Part shown: positions 10,994 to 56,107 of the stretch, piece by piece
Position numbering within the stretch: position 1 is the first letter of the stretch
Layout of the letters: each line of letters starts with the position of its first letter
From: Marchantia polymorpha subsp. ruderalis
Taxonomy: Eukaryota; Streptophyta; Marchantiopsida; Marchantiales; Marchantiaceae
Reading direction: 5' to 3'
Length of the DNA stretch: 64,000 bases
Assembly: GCA_037833965.1 (NCBI GenBank)
Contig: AP031352.1
Location: 11,078,501-11,142,500, forward strand
Program-made: the position numbers and the translations under genes
The notes under the pieces: model-generated
Seen by the model: only the letters and a program-made list of their open reading frames with translations
Told to the model about the DNA's origin: nothing
Databases searched by the model: none

Positions 10994-12129
10994 AAGCTCT
11001 CGTGGGAAACACGAACTCAGGTGACAGTGCTACGGAAAGGCAGCACTCTCTTCACAAGCAAGGCCATGGATTCACACACACAAAAGAGTGTTCCTCCACG
11101 TCTTCGACGCTGCCTACATTACAACTTCTGCAGCCGTCGGGCCAACTATATATTGGCGCCTCACAGTCACTCTCGTCATCGAGATGACCTAACTCGCTGT
11201 GCGAAAGGTTACCAACGCTGACGCTGTGGAGATTGCTCTACGAGCACGACCGATGCTTGAGAGTCGATTGGAAAGCCGATCTACTAAAACCTTCAACCTT
11301 CCTTCAACCCTAAATCGTTGGGATGGAAAGGAAAGGAAAGGTCGATTTGCACTGGCCAGGTAGACTGGACTTCATTATCGACACCCCACGGGAGCTAAAA
11401 CGGGGCCCGGCAATTAGCCTTTCGAATGGATTTTTAGGCAGAAAAAATTGAAAGTAGCGGGATGACAGAAGTGTTTCATGGTTTGCAACAGATGATTTCT
11501 TGTTGATTAAAAAATATATTCGTAGCGCTTGATAATGGGGATAGATTGATCTCGCTACTTTTATGGAAAGTTCCACAATTTGCATTTATATGGACATTTT
11601 ACGGATTGTGAAACCATTCATGCATGCTACAAGTTTGGAATTATCATCAAAGTTTTTGTTACTCCATTCAGCTACTGTATATTCAATCTTTTGCTCCAAT
11701 ATGTACACTTCCAGAATTTATACCAATGACATTTATTGGAGTTCATATCCACTTTGACGCATTGTTACTTATCTCTTGTACTCTATTTGGTTTGTTTTTA
11801 TTCTCCATAGTGCGAAAACTCAATGCTCATCATACTAATCTGGTTTGTATTCTGAATTGTTGGGGTATGGAAGTGTTAGAAATCAAATTGAGTTGATCCA
11901 ACACCACGCAACATCAACCTGAACATCACGCTGATCCACACCACCATCCTCAACCTCAGGATCTGAAGATCTACTATCTACTCTCTGACTAGAGTAAGAT
12001 GTCAGATGATACTCTTTGCTTGAGTTTCCACGTAACCAACACATGAAGGCAGATGCATGCCAACCAGTCACCATCGCCTCGTCAACCTCACCATGCCATC
12101 TAGCTCCACTGTCATCCTCCTGGCTAGTG
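10994..12129. other. Upstream flank of TDP1, no gene seen
   Basis: This stretch lies upstream of the TDP1 start codon and should hold its promoter and 5' untranslated region, although I cannot point to a TATA box. From about 11300 onward it becomes AT-rich with short frames only. No protein motif is recognisable on either strand. Confidence 0.4.
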
Positions 12130-13690
12130 CATGGGTTCCGACTCAAATCATCGGCATCGAGGTTCGCAACTATGCACTACCTGAAAGTCGTACTCCTGTA
12201 AGATGAGAGCCCATCGTGCAAACTTCCATGTGAGCTTGTCGGACTCTATCAACCACTTGAGTGGCTAATGATCAGTAACAAGGGTGAATTGCGTATCAAA
12301 CAAATAACACCTGAAGTGTGCCACAGTCCACATCACTGCCAAGCACTCTCCCTCGTACGAACTATACCGCGAGTCTGCTGCATTGTTTTGAACGACTAGC
12401 GTACGGAACCACAAAGTCCTTGCCCTCATCATCACGTTGCGTCAACACCGCTCCAAGTCCCAACAAACTCTAATCAATGTGCAACTGGTATAGACGACCT
12501 CTCATAAGTCTCCTCAAGATGGAAGCGGCCACCAACCTTGCCTTGAGCTCAACAAAAGCTCTCTCCTGCTCATCTCCCCATTGCCACTCCTGATCTGACT
12601 TCAACAACTTGTTCAAAGACTTGGCTATGGCAGTGAACCCCTTCACATACCTCCGGTAGTAGTTCGCCAAACCCATGAATGCACAAACTCTTCTCACATC
12701 CGTGGGACGAGGGATGCGTGCAATAGCCTCCACCTTTGCTTGCTGAACTCCTAAACCACCTGGGTATATCACATGACCCAAGTATTCAACCTTCTCCTGG
12801 AAGAACTTACACTTCCCAGGATGTAACCTCAAACCATGAGCCCTCCACCGCTCAAACACAATCTGTAAATGTATCTGGTGTTGCTGCACAGTGTCACTAA
12901 ACACCAAGATATCATCAATGTAACATCAGACAAAATCCAGCCCCGCCGGGATTCTGTTCATAACCCTATGAAACTCGGCAAATGCATTCTTCAACCCAAA
13001 GTGTAAGAATTGCCACTGATATAAACAATCCTTGCCGTGGAAGTTGACGCCCCAAAACGTTGTCTTGGTCTTGTACTCCTCCCGAATTGGCAACTGATGG
13101 TATCCTGCCCGAAGATTTAAAGTGTTAAAAATCCTCGCATGTCCCATCACATCAAAGATTTCCTCAGGTGTAGGCATGGCATACTTATCAGACTTTGTGT
13201 GTCGATTGATAGGACGGTAGTTTCCACACATGCACCTATCCGTGTAGTTGCCATGTACATCCTTTTTCACCAGCATGATAGTGGCTGAAGCATACTCACC
13301 ATGCGATAACTTCACTAATTCAGTATCTAATAGGTCCAAAGTCCTACTCCGAATCAAATTTCTCTCCATCTCACTGTATCGGTACAGACGATAGAAGATT
13401 GGCGTATCACTAGCCAATTCTATCCGTATACAGGGTCCAATCAAAACACCCAACTACTTCATAAAGAAAGCAAAACAATTCCTATGATCTCGTAGAAATT
13501 GTGTCAACTGTCGCCTCTCTCCTCCTGTGATCTGGTAACCAATCAATGGTGCCCATTCCTCCATAGTCACACTAGAGGAAGGCGATACTCTCACTGATTG
13601 CTACGCCACATCCTCCAAAGAAGGGGTCTCTGTACACTCCTTCGTAGCAACTTCCGCATGAGAAACCTCTCCAACTGCATGGGTTGCAAC
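12130..13690 (-). pseudogene. Decayed Ty3/gypsy pol: reverse transcriptase and RNase H
   Basis: Read on the minus strand, about 13690-12926 holds the start of a Ty3/gypsy reverse transcriptase (PYRYSE-like, CGNYRPIN, TLNLRAGYHQ, FGLKNAFAEFHRVMNRI). The catalytic box is CYIDDILVFSD at about 12925-12890, and the thumb and RNase H follow (GHVIYPGG, FMGLANYYRRYVKGF, LGAVLTQRDD, DADDLS). A TGA at 12926-12928 sits immediately before the YIDD box and a TAG at 12265-12267 interrupts RNase H. Both are one C-to-T step from the expected Arg and Gln codons. No gag, integrase or LTR is attached. The copia-type LTR at 13730 abuts it on the right in the opposite orientation. It is a dead fragment. Confidence 0.88.
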
Positions 13691-13729
13691 TCTGCCGAGT
13701 CCTCTCGTCACGTTCCATGAACTCCAAGG

Positions 13730-22100: not shown

Positions 22101-22470
22101 CTGTGGATAGGCGACCCCTTGCGGACGTAGACTTGTGCCTACGCGTAGGCAGAGAAAGTTTGCCTACGCATAGGCAGGACTCACCCCCAGTGCAACGCAG
22201 GAAGGGGAAGGAGCCGGCGGAAGATCCGCCTTCGGTTCAAGGGCCTTCGGGGCAAGGCCCTCCGGCGGCGAGATCGCAGGGATATGCGCCTTCGGGCCAC
22301 CGAGCTACAAACAAAGAGCCGGCGGGAGCCGCGCCTTCGGCGGAAAATCCGCCGGAAGGTGCGCCTTCGGCGGAAGGGCCTTCGGGCCAAGGGACAACGG
22401 GCGGGCCACCTTCGGCGCTGCGCCCTCGGCGGAAGAAGCGCCGGGAATTGCGCCTACGCATAGGCCGGAC
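19129..22470. repeat. Cluster of short hairpin palindromes (CGCCTACGCATAGGCG and CGCCTTCGGCG)
   Basis: The 16-mer CGCCTACGCATAGGCG or a close variant occurs near 19129, 19171, 19201, 19226, 19561, 22080, 22136, 22161 and 22450. The shorter CGCCTTCGGCG or GCCTTCGGC occurs dozens of times. Both are self-complementary and would fold as small hairpins. They crowd the stretch upstream of the LTR ORF and the low-complexity middle of the ORF itself, where they encode Pro-Ser-Ala-Glu-Gly-like repeats. Confidence 0.8.
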
Positions 22471-23775
22471 GCATCCCTGTCGCAGGACCGATCGGCGGAG
22501 CAGGACCTAACGGAGGAGCGGGTTGACTGTCCGCAGGGTGAAATTAGTGCGCGCGATGCACAATTACACTCCGCGCAGGTACATTCCGCACGATCGCCTT
22601 CGGCGGTAGACGCCGGCGGCGAGGAGGTTACAGTCGCGGCGGGACAGAGACAGGCGGACGATGCGAATTTGGCACGGCCGCATTCACCCACCGCCTTGGA
22701 CATTTTAGCAAGGAGCAGCGAGGCTGCAGGAGCGCCAGCGGCGGCAGAGCACGCAGACATCTCGCAGCCCCGCACAGGCCAGTCGCCGACGAATTCAATG
22801 GCGATCAAAATCCTCAATTCGGAGGATGACGAAGAAGGAGGATCCACGGAATCAGTGTCGGGATCGGGATCCACCGAGGAGAAGGAGAAGGAAATGGTAG
22901 GCGCGCCGACGGCGGCGCTCTGTGAGCAGGTAGTACCTCTGCTGAGGTACCTGGATCGCAAGATGGAGAAGTACGCGGACCCTCGCCAGCCTGGGTCCTA
23001 CGTCGAGTTAGTGCGTAGGCGAACTCGCACTAAAGTCCACACCAGCAAGTTGCTGGCCCGTGTGGACCAGGAACTTAAGGATCTGCAAGAGAAGCATGAG
23101 TGCTTGTGGGGTCAGTACAACCTCAATAGGAAGTTGTACAAACACTTCGACAAGACGAAGGACGAGAAGCTGGAAGAGTTCGCCAAGGAGAAGGCGAAGC
23201 TCACAGAGGCGCTGGATTCTGAGCAGGCTCAGAATCAAATTTTTTCAGAGGAGCTCGTGCGACAAACACGGTTGTTAGAGCAGTGTCAGCTCGCACGACA
23301 GGCGGATGAGGAATTAATCCGCAGACTGCAGTCCGAGTGCGGGGAATTGAGAGCACAACGTGCGGAGGCCGAATTGCAGTTGGTTGTAGTTGAAGAAGAT
23401 CGCCGGCGGGCGGCAGATCGCACGAAGGAAGAGATGGCGAGACGAATCACCCACTGTCTCAGGGGCTACGGCCACAGGGAAGTGGCGGCGCAGGAGAAAC
23501 TCACACTGCGCGAGTTAGAGCTTCGTGCAGCCGGGTTGTTGACAGGTGACAGTCGGAGTCGGCGGCGAGTGGCGAAGAAGCTAGACTCTTTTCTGTCGAG
23601 ATCACGGGACACCATGGCCACCCTTGAGACGGAGGTTTCCGCGGTGTTGCGGCGGTTGGGACTGCGCAGTCGAGCTGAGGAGGGTAGGGAATTAGTGCAC
23701 GTCAGTCCGTCGCGCAGGAGGCGAAGCACAGGTTCTGCGGAGTGTAGTGTAGCGTGGTTCCGTGCAGGCGTGTAG
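20192..23775 (+). pseudogene. LTR-internal ORF, broken copy A
   Basis: The frame opens at ATG 20192 with MSTSVKLRMVPLKLPQNGL, closely matching the start of the intact copy at 30826. It is interrupted after 117 codons by the 821-bp insertion (20543-21363), resumes in frame at 21368 (RDYKDRFRR, GAPVHWSRIL, GGTLNHLSPFLINFYRSMNCL), and stops at TGA 22034-22036. The C-terminal coiled-coil half continues in another frame, visible from about 22669 to 23775 (LLRYLDRK, ELRAQRAEAELQL, RRRVAKKLDSF). A frameshift therefore lies in the repeat-rich middle between about 22030 and 22670. I do not recognise the protein family with certainty. Confidence 0.75.
20543..21363 (+). mobile_element. 821-bp insertion with TG...CA ends, solo-LTR-like
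   Basis: The insert begins TGCAACCTCCGGG and ends CCCGGTCTTACA, giving imperfect inverted ends, and is flanked by GTAC at 20539-20542 and 21364-21367. Removing it with one GTAC joins the host ORF in frame. It has a TATTTATAC box near 20810 and codes for nothing. A solo LTR fits best; a non-autonomous DNA element is possible. The 4-bp duplication is a little short for most plant LTR elements. Confidence 0.68.
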
Positions 23776-26187: not shown

Positions 26188-27325
26188 TCATACGTGGTAT
26201 TTCTTCAAACGCCAACCGTTCACTCGGATGTCTAGTAACTCTCCCGTCAAGTCCGCAAGTTTGATGGATCCGTTCGGAAACATTTCGATGACTCTGTAGG
26301 GTCCCATCCATCTCAGATGCAGCTTGCCTGGGAATCGAGCATGCCTACTGTCGTAGAGCAACGCCAAATCGCCTTTCTGGAGGAGCACTTGTTTGATCCT
26401 CTGATCATACCTCTCCTTTCTGCGAAGCTGAATTCGCCTGGTGCGTTCTTCGGCTTCTCGTCGTCTCTCCTCTAGTACCATGACTTCTTGCAACCTGTAG
26501 AGTTGACTTTCTTCCGCATTCACCCGTCTTAAGTCCAATGTTCGTTGGGTGGGTACTTCGAATTCGATTAGCAGGATCGGGTGTTGACCGTACACCAAAA
26601 AATATGGTGTTTGTTTGGTGGTAATCTTCTCGGCTGTCCGGTATGCCCACAATGCGGCTGCTAACTTCGTGTCCCAGTCGTGTGCGTGGTTTACCGTGAT
26701 CTTGAGCAGGATTTTGAACAACAGACCATTGGACTTCTCCGTCAACCCATTTGCCTTGGGGTTGTATGGTGTAGTCTTCCGGTGCTTGATGTGAAAATGC
26801 CGCGTCAGATCTTCGATTATCTGGTTCAAAAAGTGGGTGCCTCTGTCACTGACTAGTTCTAAAGGACATCCGTAGCGCGTGATGATCGATTCGAACAAGA
26901 AGGTCGCCACTGTGGCCGCATCATCCCTTTGAGTGTCTTTGGCCTCCACCATCTTGGTTGCGTAGTCCGTCGCTACCAGGATGTAGCGCCTTCGTGTGTT
27001 CTTAGTTACTGGTTGTATTGGCCCTACGAAGTCGATTCCCCATTTCTCGAAAGGTGCTAAGGGCATGATGGGAGTCAGGGGCCACCGCGTAGTAGGCGTT
27101 GGTCTCCCTTTCCTTTGGCAACTGTCGCACTTTCGAATGTAGTCGAGAACATCTTTAAACATGGTCGGCCACCAATATCCTGCATTCACGATCTTCGTAA
27201 CCGTATTCCGGGTGGCATAGTGACCACTAGCATCTTCGGTGTGCATCGCACTTACTACCCGTGGAACCTCCGATTCCTCCAGGCATCTGCACAATCGTTC
27301 GTCCGGCATCTTCTTGAACAAAACT
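26188..27325 (-). pseudogene. Ty3/gypsy integrase, separated from its pol by an insertion
   Basis: Integrase inserts the element DNA into the genome. From 27325 downward the minus frame shows the HHCC zinc finger (HTEDASGH ... CDSCQRKG). The catalytic core follows with WGIDFVGP, LVATDYATK, DRGTHF and the Glu region TPYNPKANGLTEKSN, then the C-terminal part (RWMGPYRVIEMFPNGSI) and TGA at 26188-26190. The integrase part itself is uninterrupted. Its upstream pol partner lies at 32192-32541, on the far side of the 4,861-bp insertion. An open frame continues artificially into the insertion to 27528. The integrase is an orphan piece of a dead element. Confidence 0.88.
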
Positions 27326-28232
27326 TGTAATAACCCACCAAAGGCTAAAACTGCAGTATGGTGGTAAAAAGATCGAACCCACAGGGACAGAGGCAACACA
27401 CAGAGTAAAAGTGTCACGTTTAACAGACTTTTATAGAGTTTGAATTCTAGGCGACTGTCACTCCCAGAAATACTGCAGTGCTCGACTCGGAGGAGGATCT
27501 CGACTCGGAGGATGCTCGGAGGATGCACAGTACAGCGTAGTCACTCAACACACACACACACACACACCTGAAACTGGCAAAAGCACAACTCGGAGGTCGG
27601 TCAGGACCTCCGCTTCGGATTTCAGGAGGAAAGTGTCTCAAAAGTTCACTCAGAGGTTCTGCAGGTAGTGACTCCCACTCCGGCTTTTACTGCCCTTCCG
27701 CCAGGAACTAGCGTAGGGTACCCGGACTGGACTTCCCACTTCGGAACGAAGCCTCTTCATACGCCGTGGACGTCACCCTCGACTCTCACACCAAACGCAG
27801 GGAGTGCAGACCCGACTGAGAACTTAACTGAGACACGATCCAGTAACACACACACAACCTGAATTGCAAACCAAGGCTTACACGAAGTAATAAAACTTCA
27901 CTTTGGCATTCAGGGGAAACTTCCCGTAGGAGTACAATCAGGATATGTCACTCGAAGGAGTAAGGGGGAACTGTTCAAGTCTCTAACTCGCAGCCGGCTC
28001 TGAGCATCAGAAATCACCCGCAGGTGCAGATCCGCACTACTCAAGTCTCTAACCGGGTACTAGCTCTGAACATTCAGCCGAAAGCCTTCAACTACAACAT
28101 ACGGTAACTTCGCTATGCTGCAGCTTCTCTACGTGGTGCCAGGACCAAAATGCACAAACACGCCAAGAAAGTGAGTTCCTGATCTGCACTTCCGAAACTG
28201 GAAGAGTCCCCAGGCAAAACGCCTTGATCTAC

Positions 28233-28270: not shown

Positions 28271-30826
28271 CTATCTACTACTCGCAACATCTGCGCGAAA
28301 CCAAACTATACTACTGCACTCGGCGGATCCGGTGCTGCGCCTCCTGCGCGCCGGACTGCTCCGCTCGCTGTCTCTACCTTGCCAGTCTTCCGACCGGCTG
28401 CGCAACCCCAGGCGTCGGAGGGCTGCAGTGACTTCCGACTCTAAGTGCGCCATAGTGTCGCGCGCACCCGACAAGAAGGTTTCTAATTTCCTCGCCACTC
28501 GCCGCCGACTCCGACTGTCACCCTCCGTCAATGCCGTCGCCCGAAGCTCGAACTCCCTGAGTGTGATCCTCTCTTGAGCTGCCACCTCCCAATGGGCGTA
28601 TCCTTTTAGGCAGTGAGTCACCCGCGTCGCCAACTCTTCTCGCGCCCTGCAGTTGCCTTCCACCTCTGCTAGCTGCATTTCCGCTTCCGCACGCTGCGCC
28701 CTCAAATCCGAGCACTCGGATTGCAAGTTGCGCAACAACTCCTCATCCTCCTTGCGGGCTCTTTGACTTTCTTCTAAGGCGCGCGTCTGGCGCGCAAGCT
28801 CGGCTGCTAGGATGCGGTTTTGTCTCCGCTCTTCCTGCAATTCAGACTCGATCTTTGCTCGCATTAGCTCGGCATCCGCCTGACTTTTCGTCGCCGCATC
28901 CTCCCTCTGCTGCTGCAAGGCTTGGTATAGCTTCTGTGTGACCGCCAGGTGTTGTCGGAGGGCGGTGTTCCTATCCACATATACTTGGCACCTAGAGGCC
29001 CAAATGGCCACCTTGCTCCTCGTCCTTCGCTTGATAGTCTCCACATAAGACTGCGGTTTTCCAGTACCCGAGTACTTGGATGTCTTGCGATCCAGATATC
29101 GCAGGAGTGGGACTATCTGCTCGCACAACACCCCTGTTGGCGTTTTCTGCACAGAATCCGCTTCCTGCTCTTCCGAGCTCGTCTCATCCTCAGTCTCGAG
29201 GATTTCAGTCGCCACCGAATCCCTTGGCGACTCCCTGGAACTGTGGCGCGCAGCAGCTTCCGCTGCGACTGCTGCTCCACTGCCTGCTAAAATATCCAGG
29301 GCAGTGGGGGATCCCACTGCTTGAGCCCCTGTTCCGGCTCGATCTTCGGTCTCCGAAGGGGTCGACGCCGCAGTGACTCTTGTCACCTTTGCACCGCCCG
29401 CTTCTGCTGCCTGCCCTTCCGGCGCAATCTGCGCGGAAGGTGTCTTCGCTGAAGGTGCGTCCGCCGAAGGCGTCCGCACACTGGTCGCCGGCCCTGTCCG
29501 TTTCACAGTCGGCGAATCCGGCCGTCTCTTTGTTGACCGACTCGCAGTCGGCCGACCAGCAGTTGTCCGACTGGGAGTCGGATATACCCTGCGTGTCTTC
29601 ACTCCACTTGGCCTGCTTGCTGGTGGCGTTTTCCCAGAAGTGCCTTCCGCCGAAGACGACCTTCTGAGGGTTGTTGGCTCGTCAGCCAAACTCTCTTCTG
29701 CTTCCGGCCTGCTGTCCGGTTCAACGCGCCGTTCAATTGGCCTTCCTTCCGCTTGTCGACCTTCAGTCGCCCGACTCGTAGTCGGCCGACTGTCAGTCCG
29801 TCCATCTCCTTCCGAAGGCATTGGTGCCTTCTGCGCAGAGGTATTTGTCGACTTCCCTAGAATCTGCGCGATTATCTCCTCCTGCATGGGATTCCGCCTG
29901 AGCGGAGTACGCCCGGTCTCCTCAGTACTAGTTGGCATTTTGCGTGCCCTCTGTTTTGGTCGACTGTGAGGCTCGTGGGTGGGCCGACCACGAGTCGGCG
30001 CAGCTGGCACTTCCGGCTGCCTGTCCTCAGGTCTCTCATCCCACTTCCGCTTTCGCGGAATGCGCTCACTTCGACGTTCTTCTGCTGCTCTTGCTAGGGC
30101 CGGAGCCGGAGACGGACTGGCAGGTTCCACGTCCGGATCCGTGTCTACTTCGGCCTCCCGTGAGTATCTACCTGGATAGCTCTGGGTCAGCAGCGGAAAC
30201 CGTGTCCGCTCTGAATTTGTCAAACATCCCATCGCCCGATAAAACACAATCAAGTAAGGCGAAAGATGATTGAGGGTTCCTCCTCTCTCTTCTTGCGCAT
30301 GTTGGCGCGTCACCTTCCACAGGAGCCGTGCCCAATGCACTGGAGCTCCTGACAACACTAGCTCCACAAATTCTACCTGCCAACCATGCATGTAAGCGGT
30401 CTTGGTCGGCTGCAATATCTGCAGCAATGCAGTCGCGACATTTCTCCGCAATCGATCTTTGTAATCCCGTGTCCGGAAACCGTTCTTGGGATGCCTGGCA
30501 ACTTTGAAGAGCTCATTGTAGGAGATTTCTTCCTCCTGGGACACCTTCACGCTATCGGCCTCGAAGAGGAGATCCCCTTCCTCGCCGGCACACCTGCCCA
30601 ACACCTGCGCCCAGTTACAAATGTCCCATCTTTCTGGATGTGGACGGAATCCGCGTGAGGGCTTGTGTCTCTCCTGCAGATACTCGCGCACCATCTCCGG
30701 ACATGTCCAGTTCCACCCCCATAGAAGGAAATCGAGCTTCAGCCCCAGCAGCACATCTTGAAATGCGCGTAGACCGATCTGCGGCACCCTGAGTGGAGAC
30801 ACTCGCAGCTGGGGAACCTTCGACAT
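28271..30826 (-). CDS. LTR-internal ORF protein, intact copy (about 851 aa)
   Basis: The open frame extends up to 31114, but similarity to the copy at 20192 begins exactly at the Met at 30826 (MSKVPQLRVSPLRVPQIGL), so I choose that start. Residues 1 to about 215 are a conserved globular block (LLWGWNW, WAQVLGRCAGEEGDLLF, RDYKDRLRR, GAPVHWARLL, GGTLNHLSPYLIVFYRAMGCL). The middle is Pro/Ser/Thr/Arg-rich and low in complexity. From about 570 to 760 lies a long coiled coil (ELARQTRALEESQR, LRAQRAEAEMQLAEVE), and the tail is Arg/Ser-rich. There is no zinc knuckle, protease, polymerase or transposase motif. The coiled coil and basic tail suggest a structural or nucleic-acid-binding role, but this is a guess. 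The frame is complete, unlike most retroelement ORFs here. Confidence 0.7.
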   Translation of the reverse strand: MSKVPQLRVSPLRVPQIGLRAFQDVLLGLKLDFLLWGWNWTCPEMVREYLQERHKPSRGFRPHPERWDICNWAQVLGRCAGEEGDLLFEADSVKVSQEEEISYNELFKVARHPKNGFRTRDYKDRLRRNVATALLQILQPTKTAYMHGWQVEFVELVLSGAPVHWARLLWKVTRQHAQEERGGTLNHLSPYLIVFYRAMGCLTNSERTRFPLLTQSYPGRYSREAEVDTDPDVEPASPSPAPALARAAEERRSERIPRKRKWDERPEDRQPEVPAAPTRGRPTHEPHSRPKQRARKMPTSTEETGRTPLRRNPMQEEIIAQILGKSTNTSAQKAPMPSEGDGRTDSRPTTSRATEGRQAEGRPIERRVEPDSRPEAEESLADEPTTLRRSSSAEGTSGKTPPASRPSGVKTRRVYPTPSRTTAGRPTASRSTKRRPDSPTVKRTGPATSVRTPSADAPSAKTPSAQIAPEGQAAEAGGAKVTRVTAASTPSETEDRAGTGAQAVGSPTALDILAGSGAAVAAEAAARHSSRESPRDSVATEILETEDETSSEEQEADSVQKTPTGVLCEQIVPLLRYLDRKTSKYSGTGKPQSYVETIKRRTRSKVAIWASRCQVYVDRNTALRQHLAVTQKLYQALQQQREDAATKSQADAELMRAKIESELQEERRQNRILAAELARQTRALEESQRARKEDEELLRNLQSECSDLRAQRAEAEMQLAEVEGNCRAREELATRVTHCLKGYAHWEVAAQERITLREFELRATALTEGDSRSRRRVARKLETFLSGARDTMAHLESEVTAALRRLGLRSRSEDWQGRDSERSSPARRRRSTGSAECSSIVWFRADVASSR

Positions 30827-32191
30827 TGCGTTTCCTGCACACACAAATGTTCTCCCTTTCGCTCGCTCTCTCACAATCGCCACTGCGCATCGGCCGCTCA
30901 AGCACTGACTGCTCACTCTCTCTTCGCTCACGCTCAAGTTCGCTACTCGCAATTCTCTCCAAGGTCTGTCAAGATCCTCGCGCAACTCGTCTCCGCACTC
31001 TCTCCTCTCACTGCAGGTCTCTCCGCCCTTGCGCGTAATCTTGGAAGCTGGAAATCGCAAAATCAAGAATGAGAGAATGAGACTGGAGCGCAGTCTTTTC
31101 TTCTCCGAATTCAAGAACGTCCAACGTTCTTACTGGTTACAACGTACGCAGCCGGCTATACGGCCTAACGGTTCGCCCTTTGCATGCGCGAATTCACGTC
31201 TCCGCACTGCGCGCATTCGCATGCGTGAATGTTGAATTCTCCCACCGCCGCCGCCTTCCGGACTCGAGTCCGCCGCAGGGTATACGTCGGCTATGTTGTC
31301 TTTCCCTAACCCGTCCATCACCGGAGGCGTGTCGCCGCTGGCGCGTTCCTTATCCGTCGGCGCCTTGCTGGAGGCGCACATCCAGTCGGAGCGAATTACG
31401 CCGGCGCGCATTTGTACCGCTTATTTTGTCCTTTATGCCTCGTCCATTGCTGACGGCGCATATCCGCCAGCGCAAATCATGCCAACGCATCCGGCCATCA
31501 GCGCCACGTCGGAGGCGTACATCCGACCGGCGCTTTCCTTCCATGAGCAGTCGCCAAAGGTGCTTCCGACTCTGAGTTGGTTTCCTTCCATGAGCGCGCG
31601 ATTCCGCCGAAGGCGCATCGCCGAGGGCGTACGGGAGTCCTTTCCGGCTGTGAACCCTAGCGCGAACGGCGCATGTCCGGCTACGAGTTTTCCGACGCTC
31701 ATAACTTCTCCGTCCCTGATCCATCTCCGACGCTCTTGGGCTCGTTAGAACGAGCGTCCCGAGCTCTTTCTAATGCGACTTCAATCAACTGGATCTACCG
31801 TGTATTCCGATCGTTATGAAGGTTTTCCCTTTCCGCGCTAGCGGCGCATCGCCGAAGGCGCACTCATGGTCGGACGCCTTCAAAGGTCCGGGCCCTTCTT
31901 CTGACGTCTTTAGCAAAACCTTCTCCTGAGGTGTCTGCGCCGGAAGCGTAGCTTCTTTATACGCTGGAAGCGCGTGAGTAGGGACACCTGAGAAAAGGAG
32001 CTTTTGCCGAAGGCGCCGAAGACATTGGCGTTGGTACATCCGACTACGCGATTCTTCGTGACCTCGTGACGATCTCATCAATCCACTCTATTTAACGTAC
32101 CCTTTTCTAACTACAAACACTGCTTCGGTACTAGTTTTCTAAAATTGTTTAAATTCTGCAAAAAAAACAAAAAGTGTGTTACCACAAAACT

Positions 32192-39521: not shown

Positions 39522-41243
39522 TCAAACATGAAGTCCCTCAAAGTTGACTACAGATTTCGTTGCATAAATAGTTTCGGCTCGCTTCTGGTTATTCTTGAGA
39601 ACCTCTTGAATCAGCGCCGCCTTCCCGTCCGTCACCCATGAGGTTCCTGAGACATCTATTTCCTGTAGAGTCAAGTTTACTTCCAGTAGCCCCATCAGGT
39701 CTCTGAACGCCTTTTCGTCGAGTGTGTTGTCAGACAAATCCAAGTGAGTGAGACTTGTGTTCCCTCGCAGGACCCAGAGCAGTTCCTTCCATCCTCCCTT
39801 CCAAAAAACATTGCTTTCAACATATAACTTGAGTCCTTTCAGGACTGAAGTTTCTCCAGATTTTCCATTCATCGGGAGGATACAATCCGGTATACCAGAA
39901 AACATATCCGGTAAAACATATCTCGACGATATGCAGAAATATTTCAGAGAATTGATTTCCCCTTGCAGTACCCTACCTAATAGTTTTAATGATAATATCA
40001 ATTCATCATCATATGAAGGTTCGAGTACAAGCTCCACTGTGGGTTCCTTGACATCGGAGCTAGAAGCACACGCAAGAGCTTCTATTGAATCCCAGTTTTG
40101 TCTTCCCTTTCCCTCTCGTCTACTATTACACAATAGAACCATACCAAACACAACTCTAATTTTTGTTGCTCTAGCATTGTCACGTATGACTTCGCCGAGC
40201 TGGTTCCATTCCTCAAGACTCATCCGCAAGGAACTCAACGTCACCTCCTTCAATGATGGGTTGGAAGTAAGAAGTTCCCTTAAACAGCCTCCGAGTCCAT
40301 CCATACGCTCCAGCCCAAGACGTTCAATGGATCGGTTGCCATCATCTCCGGCCAAAGCTTTTAGCAACAAGGTCGCTCCCCAGCCCACCTTCCCTAAGTC
40401 CAGTTGTTTCAACGACGAACTCTGCATCAAAGCCTGGGACAGGATTCCAACGGTCTCCTCATCAATGACCTCTCCGCGGATCTGATTGCCGTTGATACTC
40501 AACGTTTCCAATCGAGTAGCACTGCTGATCATGTCAGCCACATGCTTCACCGCACTCGAGTCCTTCCACGCGCGATACAAATTTAAGGATTTGAGTGTAG
40601 ATTCAGAATTTCCTCGCAGTCCTGAGGCGAGATTCGAGAAACATCTGCCACTCAATCTGCAATCGTCGATTGTCAAATGTTCTACGCTAGAAGAATTCAG
40701 AATTCTCCCTATCTGTAAACACAAGCTCTCCACTTCCGCTTCTGAACTCCAATGCAAATAACTAAGGGCTATCACTCGTAGAACTGTGCTAGACATGAAT
40801 CCTCTCAAAGCTACTTCCCACTCACTTTCCTTCAAGCTCGATATTCTTCCACCACAAATATCTCGTACGTCCAGAGATTCAAGGGTATTGCAGTTGCCAA
40901 TTGCCTCCAGCATTCGAACGCGCACTTGGCTTCGCAGTGTGGGGTAGCCAAGTGCGTTGGTCATGAGCGATGCACTCTCCCGATACAAATCACGAAATTC
41001 CGCCCCTCTTAATCTGGGAAGCTTCTTTATAGGCTCGCCTTTTCCTTCCAGACGCAGTAAAAGGTCCCGGACAGGAAGGGGACGGACTTGTCTGGTGGGC
41101 GGGGGCGAGGGGGGGCTTGGGGGGGCATGCTCCCCTTGTAGCTCCTCCACTGCAGCGGAGGGAAGCTCCGATTCCTTGTCTGCGGAGTCCATTCCGCGTG
41201 TTTCAGCAGCGTGACTGACATTGGACGCACCTGCACCTTCCAT
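39522..41243 (-). CDS. Leucine-rich-repeat protein, RNI-like, 573-aa ORF
   Basis: The frame runs from ATG 41243 to TGA 39522-39524 without an intron. Residues 1-60 are Ser/Pro/Glu-rich. From about 100 to 560 there are irregular leucine-rich repeats of ribonuclease-inhibitor style (LESLDVRDI, LKSLNLYRAW, LETLSINGNQI, LKQLDLGKVG, LTHLDLSDNTLDEKAFRDLM, LQEIDVSGTSW). Such folds bind proteins; no kinase, NB-ARC, F-box or membrane segment is visible. Related fragments at 39.0, 49.9 and 50.4 kb imply that the family has a longer C-terminus (FKLYQVKYVSLELGGHAWVCKEC). Here the frame ends where the paralogous fragment at 50.5 kb continues in another frame, so this copy may be truncated. It could be functional as it stands or be an early pseudogene. 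Confidence 0.7.
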   Translation of the reverse strand: MEGAGASNVSHAAETRGMDSADKESELPSAAVEELQGEHAPPSPPSPPPTRQVRPLPVRDLLLRLEGKGEPIKKLPRLRGAEFRDLYRESASLMTNALGYPTLRSQVRVRMLEAIGNCNTLESLDVRDICGGRISSLKESEWEVALRGFMSSTVLRVIALSYLHWSSEAEVESLCLQIGRILNSSSVEHLTIDDCRLSGRCFSNLASGLRGNSESTLKSLNLYRAWKDSSAVKHVADMISSATRLETLSINGNQIRGEVIDEETVGILSQALMQSSSLKQLDLGKVGWGATLLLKALAGDDGNRSIERLGLERMDGLGGCLRELLTSNPSLKEVTLSSLRMSLEEWNQLGEVIRDNARATKIRVVFGMVLLCNSRREGKGRQNWDSIEALACASSSDVKEPTVELVLEPSYDDELILSLKLLGRVLQGEINSLKYFCISSRYVLPDMFSGIPDCILPMNGKSGETSVLKGLKLYVESNVFWKGGWKELLWVLRGNTSLTHLDLSDNTLDEKAFRDLMGLLEVNLTLQEIDVSGTSWVTDGKAALIQEVLKNNQKRAETIYATKSVVNFEGLHV

Positions 41244-42890
41244 TCTCCCCTACACTCTCACAGAAGAAGAAACGTTTGCTGCTTGGGATACGCGGGTGAA
41301 ATGTAAATCGGGCATACAAGACTCCCTCTCCTCGATCCACAAGCCTGGCTCTTTTGAAGAAAACTTAACTTCACGTCGCAATATCACAGATTGTGTGCAT
41401 GTGCGTGGGCATGAGACTTCTTGTACTCTGCATGAGTAGCCACACAAAGGTTACTCCAAGCGCTCCACAGAATCCGATCAAGAGAAATCACCACGAATGA
41501 AAAATCACCACAAAACAAAGGAAGATTCTGTAAAGTGGAAACAGGAGGCTGGTTGAACTCAGTGCAGGTCACTAAAAACGATGTGAATCGAAATGAAAGC
41601 AGATAACCAGAATTATGCGTACAAAGAAAATCCTAGAGCGGGTCTAAAGGGACTTCATACCTATTGTGGTAGTCTACCGGAGTGAGGTTTGATGCACTAG
41701 TTATTGAATTGACAAGCTGAAAGTTACCGAACTGAGTGGATAAGATGAAAGTTACCGAACTGAGTGGACAAGCTGAAAGCTGAAAGTTCTGCAGGGACTC
41801 AGAAGTCCAAAAGATTGGTTCTTAGCAAAGATGTTGCGACGTGGATGCAGAATATCATGGAAAGTATGGAAGTGCAGATATCTCAGATATTAAGTACTCT
41901 GCGTTGCGTAAATTTCCATGTACAATTGGTCAGGGAGAATGCGAATGTAGCTGGTTCATGACCCACGGGAAGACAGACCCTACGAAGGGTAATGCGTAGA
42001 AATATGCAGCTTAATCATCAGATCTTCTTACTGAATGGTGTGGGTGATCGAAGTAACGGCACTATAGGAACACAACAAGCGTGTTCCTCCATATATACCT
42101 TGATTGGAAAATGTTCTTGGGAGTTCACAGTAGATCTTGACTTTTTTGTGCAAGCAAACAGGATAATCGAGTCAATGTATCAGCACACTGATACACTCGA
42201 TGTTGTCACAGTTACAACATAGATTTCAAATATCGCCTCCATTGAATACTTTTTCCTGGAATCTTTGAACTATTCAAGCAAGTGGATGTAATCTGACAAC
42301 TGAGAGACACATGAGTAGTCATCTCGGTGTACAAAGCCTGTTGTGATTTTTCCTTGCTTTGAAGACCGGTAGAGTAGTCTCCAGTACTCTGGATAACTCG
42401 TAAGTTCAGAACAAACTGATCATCTTTTTCGAAGTTTACCAAACATAATGTCGAAAATTGTGTACAAGGTATACGAAGCTCAATGTTTTCAACTGCTGCT
42501 ATGATTTTTCTTCTACCTCAACTGTCAAGTATGTCAGCGGATGCACAGTTATAATACCAGAGTTTGGAGGTCTTTCCACCCCAAACATTAGAATGAAATC
42601 AGATTTAATCCGAGCTAAGAGCACTCCTGCTTCTTTATCCCGTTGTATAGAACAAGATAGAACCAGCATGATACTTGCTAGGGTCAATGTCAATCCTCTG
42701 AAGATTTTACATTTTTGAACTTGCTTGCAAGAGAAGAAACATGAGATGGAAAACACTTCATATGCTAAATTGTAGAAAACAATGAAGATCTCGCTTTACA
42801 TCTCAAGGAGGAGACAAAGTACATGAAAATTCAAATATTTAATACATATCATCTGAAATGAAACAAGTGATTTTGTCTGGAAGATGGAAT
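41244..42890. other. Upstream flank of the LRR ORF, no other gene seen
   Basis: The first part should contain the LRR promoter. Phrases such as AAAGTTACCGAACTGAGTGGA are repeated near 41725-41775. Short frames have no known motif. Confidence 0.35.
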
Positions 42891-50394: not shown

Positions 50395-50577
50395 TCAAGT
50401 GTAATCCACATCATGCATCCTATAGAAAATGGCAACATCATCCGTAATGTAAGGTCGCTTCGGAGTTCTCCACTTATGTATAAAATGAGAATAATGAATG
50501 AAAGTGTCCACTTTAGACATGAAAGTATTCAATGTTGACTGCAGTTTTTTGTCGTGCGAATACATATCACCATACAC
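50395..50577 (-). pseudogene. Second LRR-family fragment
   Basis: At the DNA level this aligns with the 3' end of the LRR ORF and the bases after it (about 39440-39570). Shared phrases are CAGTCAAC, CATTACGG and a TTCTATA/CTCTATA motif. Its frame reads KLQSTLNTFM then TPKRPYITDDVAIFY. The comparison shows that the reading frame at the end of the 39.5-kb ORF differs from this copy. Confidence 0.5.
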
Positions 50578-50794
50578 TCTACATCACTGACATGCTACAC
50601 ATACATACACACACACATAGGACACGAGAGCGTACACACTCAAATGTATCACAACTCAAAATACTTGTTTTTCCCCACTGGAAAACACGTTGGTATTAAT
50701 TACCCCACTGGCAACAAAACCGACACAAGTTGCTTGTGACCCTTGTGGTTGGGCGGATCATCCTCCAGGTTGATGTTTTGACCTTCATCCAGAG

Positions 50795-51121
50795 TTGAGA
50801 TCTGGGGGTAGAGGTCGTGGGAGAGGTGCTCCACGAGGCCGAGGGGGTCGAGGTGTTAGAGGTGCTGGTGCTGGTGCCACCGGACGGTCCGTAGTGGGTG
50901 CTACTCTTATCATAGAGTCCGCTATGGCTGCTCAGATTGAGAAGTTGGATCAGAGGCTTGCTGCTATGGCTAGATTTAGAGCTGGAGCTTCCATTTCTCA
51001 TCAAGAAGAGTATCTCTCTTATTTGGCGAGTGCAGCCCAGGTTGAGGCATCAGTTGGAGTGACGAGAGGTACTGCTCGTGCTTCAGAGCCACGTGATGCG
51101 ACCGTAGAGTTGGATACTTAG
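50795..51121 (+). pseudogene. RG-rich segment of a retroelement polyprotein
   Basis: The frame starts with an Arg-Gly-rich stretch (GGRGRGRGAPRGRGGRG) followed by a probable helix (AAQIEKLDQRLAAMARF). It ends at a TAG at 51119-51121, although related sequence seems to go on. RG-rich stretches often bind nucleic acid. It lies directly upstream of the protease and in the same orientation, so I take it as the gag-side part of one element. Confidence 0.55.
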
Positions 51122-51333
51122 AGGGGTGAGGGTGGAAGACAAGTTAGACTTTTCCAGTCATTCCAGTTATCAAAGGTGGACATGACTTCATCCATGATTC
51201 TTACACCACCTAGTGATCCAGTAGTGCGGACTCAGGCATCTACATCACATGTTGTGAGCGCGGAGACATCATCTAGTGCAACAATGCAGATGGCTAATTC
51301 GGTGATGAGATCTCACTGTTTTCAACCACAGAG

Positions 51334-51801
51334 GTGATGGACTCCGGGGTTGATGTGGCTCGTGTATTTCTTGTAGCAGCCATGTTGTGTGAACGTGGGA
51401 GTGTCACTATTACAAGTGCCGAGAAACGCGAGGATCCAGTTGGAAAGCAACTCTCAACACCTACACTCAAGGATGAAAAGACTTGGCAGGCGGCAGCGGC
51501 AAAGATGGAGTTATTACCAGCCCGGCCAGCCATTAATCGCGAGAGAATTGTCTCTGATGTGTGTATGGTGGACAACCGGAGTGGTTTGTTTTGCCTGGTG
51601 AGTTCTACAAGACATGTGTATATCCCAGCAAGAGTTTTGCTTGACTCTAGTGCTCAGCCCTTGATGTTAGGCAAGGCAGCTTGCATCAATTTGGGAGTTC
51701 AGAGATCCGAGTTGAAGCCTTTTCCATTCAAGATCCAGACATCACTTGGCGGTACCAATGATAGGTCATACTTCATGACCAAGGAAAGCGTATCAGTGTA
51801 G
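51334..51801 (+). pseudogene. Retroelement aspartic protease, altered active site
   Basis: Near residues 105-150 the frame shows the pattern of a retroelement aspartic protease: ARVLLDSSAQPLMLGKAACINLG, split here as ARVLLDSSAQ and PLMLGKAAC, then LKPFPFKIQTSLGG. The usual active-site triplet Asp-Ser/Thr-Gly reads Asp-Ser-Ser, so the catalytic Gly is missing. The frame stops at 51799-51801. It belongs with the RG-rich segment upstream and the methyltransferase downstream. Confidence 0.7.
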
Positions 51802-51882
51802 TAAGGCATGATGACGCACGTGATAGCTCACAGCTTGGAGTTTAATTCAACCTACAAATTAACCTAATTAATTTCAGCAATT

Positions 51883-52323
51883 GTGGTCACATCATCAGAA
51901 TCGTATGATGTGCTTGTTGGAGGAGCAGTCTTGTATCCGATGGATTTTCAGATGGACTATTGGACCGAAAAAGCAGCCTATCGCCCTAGCTGGCAATCTG
52001 GTGATGGACGTATGAGCGAGCTACCTGTGAGATTCATTTCTGGAGCTCGACTGCTTGGATCTTCTCCTACGGTGTTGGCATCCGTTGCAGGGCTTAGCGG
52101 AGTGCTTGCGTGGCCCGACGACTTGCTGGAGGGCAACATGTCAGCCAACGACACTTCGGTCTATGAGGATGTGGAGGAGATTGTGAGACTTGCGGCGAAA
52201 GTGTCTTCTTCCTTAGACGTTCCACTTTGGCGTTCTTGCCATGAGTTGCAGCAAAAGGCTGATAGGTTGGTGAAGAAGGCTTGGAGTGAGGCTTCTTTAC
52301 CTGAGGAGATAAAGACATCTTAA
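51883..52323 (+). pseudogene. Linker domain between protease and methyltransferase
   Basis: The 146-aa frame begins VTSSESYDVLVGGAVLYPMD, which resembles the end of a protease or start of a reverse-transcriptase linker in retroelements. It then enters a region without known motifs (PVRFISGARLLGS, LAAKVSSSLDVPLW). It ends at TAA 52321-52323. I infer that it was continuous with the flanking parts before decay. Confidence 0.5.
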
Positions 52324-52389
52324 GGTGATTAGCCTTGTTGTGGTACTTGCGTGCTATCGCCATTGGTCACTACACCTATTGTATGGGAG

Positions 52390-52850
52390 TATTTTCCAGA
52401 GCATGTGTGTGTGTTGGATCTTTTTGATGGGATCCGCATGCAGTTTGGCTGCATTGTTGCAGTCAGGTATTCCCGTACGCAAATACTTATATGTGGAGAA
52501 GTATGAAACTGCACGTCAAGTTTTTACACAACATGTTACACAGTGAGTGCAGCGTTATACTTCCTTGTTGCCACAATTTACTGTCGGAGGATACCAGAAG
52601 GCGTTGGCTTCAAATATTTTATTGTTGGGGGCGCCAGACCTTGATCGGGTTGGCCACATTGATTTGGTGACAGTAGGATGGCCATGTCAGGATCACACTC
52701 ACGCTGGTCATGGAGCAGGGTTGTAAGACCCTAGATCTCGTATGTTTTGAGAGATATTACGTGTGTTACGTTATCTCCAGGTGTATCAGGCACGTCCCAC
52801 AGCGTACATTCTAGAGAACGTGCCATTATTGGGTGACACTTGGCCATAGT
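52390..52850 (+). pseudogene. C5 cytosine DNA methyltransferase domain within a retroelement
   Basis: Three hallmark motifs of C5 cytosine methyltransferases appear in order. Motif I is VLDLFDGI (about 52411-52434), followed after a frame change by LAALLQSG and YLYVEKYETARQVF. Motif IV is IDLVTVGWPCQDHTHAG at about 52659-52710 and contains the Pro-Cys catalytic pair. Motif VI is AYILENVPLLGD at about 52804-52840. The later target-recognition and C-terminal motifs are absent. Stops at 52543-52545, 52723-52725 and 52747-52749, and a frameshift near 52435, make it inactive. It follows the protease and linker in the same orientation, and no host-type regulatory domains are present. Confidence 0.85.
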
Positions 52851-54809: not shown

Positions 54810-56107
54810 TGTTACAAGTGGCAAAGATGAAAACGGTCAGGGTGCTCATGTCCTTGGCAGCTGGCAAGTCATGGCAACTTTAGCAAATGGATGTCAAAAA
54901 TGCCTATCTTTATGGAGACTTAGATTGAGAAATATACATGGAGCAGCCTGCAGGATTTGTAAGTCAAAAGAATCCAAAGTTCGTGTGCAAGTTAAAGAAG
55001 GCACTATGCGGCTTAAAACAAGCACCAAGGGCCTAGTATGGAAAAATTGCTGAAATTATAGTATTTTGTGGCTATCAAGTATATGTTGGCGATTCTAGTC
55101 TTTTCGTGAAGGTGTTGAAGCGCAAGGTTGCAATCATTCTACTCTATGTGGATGATCTCATCATCACTGGAGATGCCTTGGAAGAAATCCAAGAAACGCG
55201 TAGGAATCTGCTCAAAAGATTTGAGATGAAAGATCTTGGAGATCTGAAGCATTTCCTAGGCTTAGAAATTGAAAAAAAGTTTGAGAGGGTTGTTCTTATA
55301 CCAGAGGAGATATACAGAGGATCTTTTGAAGAAATATGGGATGTCGAACTACAAGGCAATTGCAACACCGATGGAAGTGAACCAGAAGTTAAGAATGGAA
55401 GTTGGCGATGAGTTGGAGTATGCACGCCTATATCAAAAGTTGGTTGGGTGCATTATCTATCTCACCATTACTCATCCAAACATCTCTTATGCAGTGGAAG
55501 TTGTAAGTCAATTCATGCAAAGTCCGAGGAAACCACACTTGGAAGCAGCTCGGCGCATTCTATGGTATGTTCGAAGTACTAAAGACTTTGGTATTCTATA
55601 TGAAGCCAAAGTTAAACAAGAGTTGGTTGGATTCACATATGCAGATTGGGTTGGAGATCCATCGAGAAGAAGGTCTACTATGGGTTATACCTTCAACTTA
55701 GGTTCAGGTGCGGTCTCATGGTGCAGTAAGAAACAACCAACAGTTGCTTTATCATCTACAGAAGCGGAGTATCGAGCAGCAACAATGGCAGCTCAAGAAT
55801 GTTCGTGGCTCTTAAGAGTACTAAGAGACATTGGCATAGATGTTAATTACTCGGTGGAACTTTACTGCGACAATCAAAGTGCTCTATGACTCGCTTCAAA
55901 TCCGGTGTTCTGTGCTGGGACAAAACATATTGAAGTTCATCATCACTATATCTGCGAGAAGGTGCTAAGTGGAGAAATTTACTTGAGTCCAGTAAACACT
56001 AAAGACCAAGTTGCAGATATTTTTTCCAAGAACTTACCAGTCTTGAAGCAAAACAAGTTCCGCAATCTACTTGAAGTATATAGCTGGTCGTCGGCATTGA
56101 GAGGGGA
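54810..56107 (+). pseudogene. Copia pol: reverse transcriptase and RNase H, decayed
   Basis: The match runs from MDVKNAYLYGDLD and YMEQPAGFV through [45 protein letters not shown] and [11 protein letters not shown] to RNase H (SRRRSTMGYTF, ALSSTEAEYRAATMAAQE, LYCDNQSAL, HIEVHHHYICEKV, DQVADIFSK). In-frame stops at 54881-54883, 54926-54928, 55034-55036 and 55887-55889, plus a frame change near 55300, disable it. The YVDD box is intact. The upstream gag, protease and integrase are absent. The 3' LTR follows directly. Confidence 0.9.

Follow-up and report, generated by a model that had tools for sequence, protein, structure and literature searches.

The 64,000-nucleotide stretch of Marchantia polymorpha subsp. 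ruderalis analysed here (contig AP031352.1, positions 11,078,501 to 11,142,500; hereafter the window) contains two dead fragments of a multi-copy, live retrotransposon family of the Ty3/gypsy type, which encodes a cytosine-5 DNA methyltransferase of the DNMT3 type. We put the probability of this identification at about 0.97. An earlier reading based on the letters of the window (the sequence-only reading) had described a dead retroelement at 50795-52850 with an arginine-glycine-rich (RG-rich) segment, an aspartic protease and the methyltransferase motifs I, IV and VI, all of which were located there. It had also proposed that retroelements bringing a DNA methyltransferase of their own exist or existed in a liverwort-like plant, and had recommended a search for active relatives. 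These two ideas hold: the genome carries more than 100 methyltransferase-bearing copies of the family, and of ten copies fetched with their flanks, all have the same domain order and seven have both frames open.

The first fragment occupies 50717-52840 on the forward strand; it starts slightly earlier than had been claimed and ends just past motif VI. In tblastn it corresponds to residues 405-1105 of open reading frame 1 (ORF1) of an open copy, in three overlapping pieces with shifted frames and 62-67% identity, and in blastn its DNA is 78-79% identical to that of copy L013. It comprises a zinc knuckle/RG segment, a linker, the aspartic protease, a post-protease segment and the first half of the methyltransferase. 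Both ends are truncated, and the fragment stops after motif VI, without motifs VIII-X. The gag part (50774-50848, +), placed by motif positions and by alignment to ORF1 of open copies, consists of the zinc-knuckle end CFDLHPEL and the RG-rich segment itself (50810-50848, +). The active-site motif of the protease (51637-51657, +) reads LLDSSAQ. The DSS triplet pointed out earlier is therefore present in this copy; it is not a trait of the family, since the open copies read have LLDSGAQ.

The truncated methyltransferase domain (52394-52840, +) retains motifs I (LDLFDGI, 52414-52434), IV (GWPCQ, 52676-52690) and VI (LENVPLL, 52811-52831). Motif I is in a different frame from motifs IV and VI, which indicates a frameshift between I and IV, and stops are found in each of the three frames over 52392-52849. 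This means that the window copy of the enzyme is broken, in agreement with the previous description of a dead element. The profile search that had been suggested for 52390-52850 gave a match to PF00145 (DNA_methylase) at 52655-52831 with 36.5 bits (cut-off 22, E-value 3.9e-7) and two stops inside.

A terminal-repeat fragment of another copy of the family, in inverted orientation, abuts the ORF1 fragment (50549-50726, -). It contains the end of repeat A plus repeat B, and blastn aligned it with the 3' end of copy L011 (78% over 193 columns; 90.5% over 74 columns for the B part). The second fragment of the family lies at 11912-13729 (-) and is 91% identical to copy L013 over 1829 columns (blastn). 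It holds the last 42 residues of ORF1 followed by the reverse transcriptase (RT) and RNase H of ORF2, and aligns by tblastn with ORF1 1317-1358 and ORF2 15-564. The boundary between the two frames (13592-13606, -) reads GCG TAG CAA TCA GTG, in which the UAG is in a CARYYA context.

The genome searched comprised 241 Mb in 9 contigs. In the PF00145 search, 123 of 290 candidate places were scored, so that the counts are lower bounds; 24 of the 123 are in open frames of 1351-1365 amino acids. Four places align with an early portion of the profile where the others show no match, and are taken to be host genes, and the two of these that were read are DNMT3-like (L001) and DRM-like (L002). With a 622-residue query covering the post-protease segment and methyltransferase of one copy, all 71 scored matches were 88-100% identical, again a lower bound, as 71 of 901 first-look candidates were scored. 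The copies fall into two subfamilies with a DNA difference of approximately 12%.

The anatomy was determined from 10 copies fetched with their flanks. Protease, methyltransferase and RT are in identical order in all ten. ORF1 (1355-1365 amino acids) is open in every one of them and ORF2 (1042-1045 amino acids) in seven, so that both frames are intact in 7/10. ORF1 is read as gag-protease-methyltransferase, with zinc knuckles at residues 379 (CWTCGG) and 411 (CDHC), the protease motif DSGAQ at 718 and the methyltransferase motifs from 965 to 1262. ORF2 has the order RT-RNase H-integrase-PHD finger. Its Pfam matches, all above the cut-off, are RVT_1 (116.6 bits), RT_RNaseH (124.7 bits), Integrase_H2C2 (57.7 bits) and rve (50.5 bits), in that order. 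The gag and protease profiles are weak in the Marchantia element (Retrotrans_gag reaches 15.2 bits and RVP_2 11.7 bits, each short of its cut-off); the zinc knuckles and DSG were seen by eye, and the relative P0032 matches Asp_protease_2 with 26.3 bits (cut-off 24.3). The PHD finger at the end of ORF2 was scored in two copies, with 44.3 and 43.6 bits against a cut-off of 24. Among solved structures it is best matched by the PHD fingers of proteins that regulate chromatin, PHF12 and CHD4 for example. No chromodomain was found by Pfam in L013 ORF2 (residues 1-850 and the last 162 residues) or in the whole ORF2 of the relative L082. There was no phage-integrase Pfam match that would indicate a tyrosine recombinase, the integrase being of the rve type instead. 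ORF1 has no ADD or PWWP domain by Pfam.

The methyltransferase of the element scored 88.5 bits against the DNMT3 profile and 38.5 bits against that of the RNA enzyme DNMT2. Its fold, predicted with a 43-sequence alignment (the single-sequence prediction gave a pLDDT, or predicted local distance difference test, of 33), was best matched by DNMT3, although only about 20% of the residues are identical when it is aligned with DNMT3A by structure. No variation was seen at the catalytic Cys or at the motif VI Glu-Asn, either among 13 diverse domains (alignment A2) or among 8 Marchantia domains (alignment A1). By profile and predicted fold, the domain is thus of the DNMT3 type, with its catalytic motifs kept and a putative activity.

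The ratio of nonsynonymous to synonymous substitution rates (dN/dS) was calculated between subfamilies from copies chosen for open frames. In ORF1 (21 pairs) the gag part gave 0.106, the protease 0.161 and the methyltransferase 0.130. Linker and tail were looser, with 0.30 and 0.68. In ORF2 (10 pairs) it was 0.057 for the RT, 0.054 for the RNase H, 0.080 for the integrase and 0.113 for the PHD finger. Within subfamily A, the value for the methyltransferase was 0.23. Low dS in the methyltransferase suggests exchange between the subfamilies. Judging from these ratios, the methyltransferase is kept by purifying selection.

A single TAG separates ORF1 from the in-frame ORF2 in 10/10 copies, and the six bases after it fit CARYYA in nine. 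In RNA viruses of plants, UAG-CARYYA is the context of type I readthrough (PMC5382211). A genome pattern in which the codon at the boundary was left free gave 143 matches; among the 100 listed, 98 have TAG, one CAG and one TAT. The same boundary in L082, a relative with 48% identity in the methyltransferase, reads TAG CAA TCA, as does that of the second window fragment. In the relative P0032, the whole domain order is in one open frame with no stop. Because the UAG and its context are kept across the copies and in L082, leaky readthrough very probably links ORF1 to ORF2. ORF2 may, as an alternative, be made by re-initiation.

The repeats of the element are split. Instead of the plain order of long terminal repeat (LTR), body and LTR, six of the ten copies have the arrangement A-body-B-A-B, with an A of about 255-298 bp and a B of about 85-119 bp. 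A seventh copy shows B-A-B, its 5' end being outside the fetched stretch, and the three further copies end after B1. An extra B-A repeat is present at the 3' end of copy L015 (10751-11546), giving B-A'-B-A-B. A first look for repeats within 2000-6000 of L028 found none; the repeats sit outside that stretch. The identities between A1 and A2 in the six copies are 100, 100, 99.7, 99.7, 99.0 and 93.8%, and several insertions are therefore young. The family has been recently active in this liverwort. A begins with TGTCA and B finishes with GACA. All seven copies with both ends, one of them ending at B1, are flanked by a 4-bp target duplication. This duplication, where 4-6 bp is expected of a DDE integrase, and the order RT-RNase H-integrase are those of the Ty3/gypsy type.

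The B1|A2 junction is the palindrome GACAGCTGTC. A 26-base pattern over this junction had 155 matches in the genome, against 0 for the reversed control. A G-run precedes B1. In addition, the stretch directly 3' of A1 has an 11-13-nt reverse complement inside A in 7/7 copies, and no such complement was obtained in 2000 shuffles or 174 leader windows for each. This self-complementary site lies where a transfer RNA (tRNA) primer-binding site would be expected. L082 repeats the layout, with a G-run and an identical palindrome; its complement, 13 nt long, is quite different in sequence, as predicted by co-variation under function. These features strongly suggest that reverse transcription primes itself at the site after A, which we hold to be highly probable.

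By the usual rules the LTR would be B-A, and the inserted copy would be a form of that product permuted where B meets A. If a circle with two LTRs were cut at this joint, exactly A-body-B-A-B would result. Circular complementary DNA (cDNA) as the integration substrate is a tentative proposal, to which we give somewhat less than an even chance. Were both strands of GACAGCTGTC cut after CA, the integrase ends would be recessed in the usual manner, the overhang being 2 nt.

These observations can be combined in a mechanism that we consider moderately probable as a whole. The RNA would start within repeat A, and reverse transcription would be self-primed on the element RNA, since the sequence immediately 3' of A is complementary to part of A itself. 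The product of ORF1 would be abundant, and leaky termination at the UAG would give RT-RNase H-integrase-PHD as a minor fusion. As the methyltransferase is in ORF1, the enzyme would be produced in the same amount as the capsid and enter the particle together with the replication complex. It might then methylate the new cDNA before integration, and the integrase might open this cDNA at the palindromic B|A junction and insert it with a 4-bp target duplication. Methylation by the element of its own cDNA has, taken alone, close to an even chance.

DNMT3-type domains are de novo enzymes. This property would also suit an enzyme that acts after insertion on the host genome or on rival elements, methylating around insertions or silencing competitors under the guidance of the integrase-linked PHD finger. 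The PHD finger is real in the two copies scored and its nearest solved relatives act in chromatin regulation; however, in Marchantia it is in ORF2 and the methyltransferase in ORF1, and the two would be joined only in the fusion, which makes this target unlikely. The domain might instead be catalytically weak or dead and kept as a structural part of the particle that binds DNA or S-adenosylmethionine. Glu replaces the Pro of motif IV (WEC vs WPC) in 14 of 54 relatives with a readable motif IV, as might be anticipated for such a part, whereas the invariant catalytic Cys and motif VI Glu-Asn and the low dN/dS render it quite improbable. The profile scores and the fold, nearer to DNMT3 than to DNMT2, count against methylation of RNA (the genomic RNA of the element or its priming stem), and we regard this as very improbable. 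RNA methylation was, however, raised by de Mendoza et al. for LINE enzymes of Symbiodinium, and KnitGypsy-Dnmt3, a gypsy element of the alga Klebsormidium nitens, gave no DNA methylation in a yeast assay that its authors called inconclusive (PMC5890265, accessible part). That a host gene fragment lies by chance beside the protease, the condition under which the sequence-only reading would have failed, can be dismissed in view of the same order and frame in 10/10 copies, the 88-100% identity of 71/71 scored matches and the one-protein fusions of methyltransferase with RT or integrase in relatives.

Capture of methyltransferases by algal retrotransposons, mentioned in the sequence-only reading, is indeed documented for Klebsormidium and dinoflagellates (PMC5890265). 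KnitGypsy-Dnmt3 (de Mendoza et al. 2018, PMC5890265) shares with the Marchantia element the gypsy domains, a Dnmt3-type methyltransferase in the coding region, DIRS-like repeats, many copies and a low Ka/Ks (below 0.2). This likeness is one of description, not of sequence, and the host is an alga. Its methyltransferase is described in the Pol ORF, whereas that of Marchantia ends ORF1, before the UAG; the PHD finger, self-priming, palindromic junction and target duplications are unmentioned for it in the accessible text of that paper. The SymbioDIRS-Dnmt3 and SymbioLINE-Dnmt elements of Symbiodinium are likewise retrotransposons with C5-methyltransferases, and the SymbioDIRS-Dnmt3 enzymes methylate CG de novo in yeast; they belong, however, to the DIRS (tyrosine recombinase) and LINE classes, while Marchantia has a DDE-type rve integrase (PMC5890265, same part).

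DNMT3A/B and bryophyte DNMT3 share the catalytic domain by profile and fold; the Marchantia ORF1 differs from them in the absence of ADD and PWWP noted above. The Tcn1 and Tf1-Sushi chromoviruses have ordinary LTRs. They are also Ty3/gypsy elements with predicted self-priming, but carry chromodomains (PMC6317226); the Marchantia element has a PHD finger and split repeats. In type I readthrough of tobamoviruses, UAG-CARYYA lies between the major product and the polymerase, as in the Marchantia element (PMC5382211, accessible part); here the UAG sits in a retrotransposon, between gag-protease-methyltransferase and Pol, and its readthrough is predicted. According to a 2019 paper, transposons of this sort are absent from land plants, such as tracheophytes; taken in its wider form, this statement is contradicted by Marchantia. 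The kind of element is therefore already known (Klebsormidium, 2018). No description of methyltransferase-carrying retrotransposons in bryophytes was found in the accessible literature, including the available parts of PMC5890265, PMC6338049, PMC12344493, PMC6317226 and PMC5382211, with subscription papers and supplements outside the search. Within the same scope, no publication was found on land-plant hosts, on a methyltransferase that ends ORF1 ahead of a leaky UAG, on the PHD finger, on self-priming or on the palindromic joint.

Among the protein matches listed, the closest named ones come from Marchantia polymorpha; they are hypothetical proteins with identities of up to 94%. Other named matches are from M. 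paleacea, Riccia sorocarpa, Calypogeia fissa, Sphagnum fallax (a gene model without the motif IV stretch) and S. troendelagicum, and from the chlorophytes Monoraphidium neglectum, Volvox reticuliferus and a protein labelled Chrzof1, taken as Chromochloris. The relatives thus span two other liverwort genera, Sphagnum and three chlorophytes; most further matches are metagenome proteins. No vascular plant is among the named matches listed, a weak negative, and no Klebsormidium name appears there, which carries no weight as an absence. In the relatives the methyltransferase lies before the RT, or between RNase H and integrase (14/60 in a first set; 21/119 in a second set of new proteins). It is in the same protein in 47 of the 119 and not in the other 72.

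The methyltransferase tree comprised 50 sequences: 40 element domains, 3 host-type, 6 prokaryotic loci and 1 IMG/VR locus, with no algal host DNMT3. The branch between the element domains and the rest has a support of 100 in the printed Newick; the label of 48 on the same branch after re-rooting is a label shift. The group with the RNase H-integrase placement has a support of 74, and the before-RT group is unsupported (46). In a Pol tree of 43 sequences, from which P0031 and P0011 were omitted because of their short length, the two arrangements tend to form separate groups, with a support of 94 for most of the pre-RT group and 44 when P0055, P0056 and P0058 are included. From these trees, one capture and one move seem to be the simplest reading; a second capture from an unsampled host gene may also have occurred. 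A larger picture can be drawn, namely an old Viridiplantae-wide gypsy-type clade, from chlorophytes to mosses and liverworts, with a single DNMT3-type uptake and a later move within the polyprotein, self-primed, with a leaky UAG, integrating from circular cDNA opened at a palindromic joint inside the LTR, and methylating its cDNA before insertion. Taken in all its parts it is rather unlikely.

A viral origin of the domain was considered and rejected. In IMG/VR, 49 of 83 pattern-matched stretches encode C5-methyltransferases (best E-value 6e-10, with 34% identity), but none of these is close to the lineage of the element, and the viral structure matches have template modelling (TM) scores below that of DNMT3. 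A prokaryotic origin was rejected as well: 36 of 109 stretches encode C5-methyltransferases, all distant save L082 (48%). The L082 contig is an RT-RNase H-integrase-PHD retroelement filed in a cyanobacterial (Synechococcales) metagenome-assembled genome, and P0062 is an element protein labelled Candidatus Obscuribacterales; the presence of both in bacterial assemblies is most likely due to contamination with eukaryotic DNA. A self-overlap of the L082 contig may reflect a circle or an assembly effect. It should be mentioned that P0034, P0038, P0041, P0047 and P0050 have a further domain of about 200 residues C-terminal to the PHD finger, with DP(F/W)AG...ND...(S/A)P motifs. Two stretches match MethyltransfD12 weakly (15.6 and 11.4 bits, cut-off 22), and algal elements may thus encode a second methyltransferase, one of the N6-adenine type. 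P0184, a relative of ORF2, is listed in EukProt under a transcript name of the Trinity style; this suggests transcription of such elements in some eukaryote.

Several other features were seen in the window. Two large, related open frames of 952 and 533 amino acids (28271-31129, -, and 22174-23775, +) have no Pfam match. The integrase of another gypsy element is at 26188-27540 (-). Pieces that by eye resemble a copia-type RT-RNase H lie at 55037-55889 (+), with no Pfam match for 55266-55886. A 575-residue open frame at 39522-41249 (-) has weak leucine-rich repeat matches and is host-gene-like.

DNA methylation is a weapon of the host against transposons. In the present family, a transposon itself carries the kind of methylation enzyme that hosts use against transposons. 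The layout of repeats and priming site, if confirmed, would represent a distinct scheme of replication and integration for a retroelement with a DDE integrase. The open copies in the genetically tractable Marchantia would make it testable why a retroelement keeps a methyltransferase.
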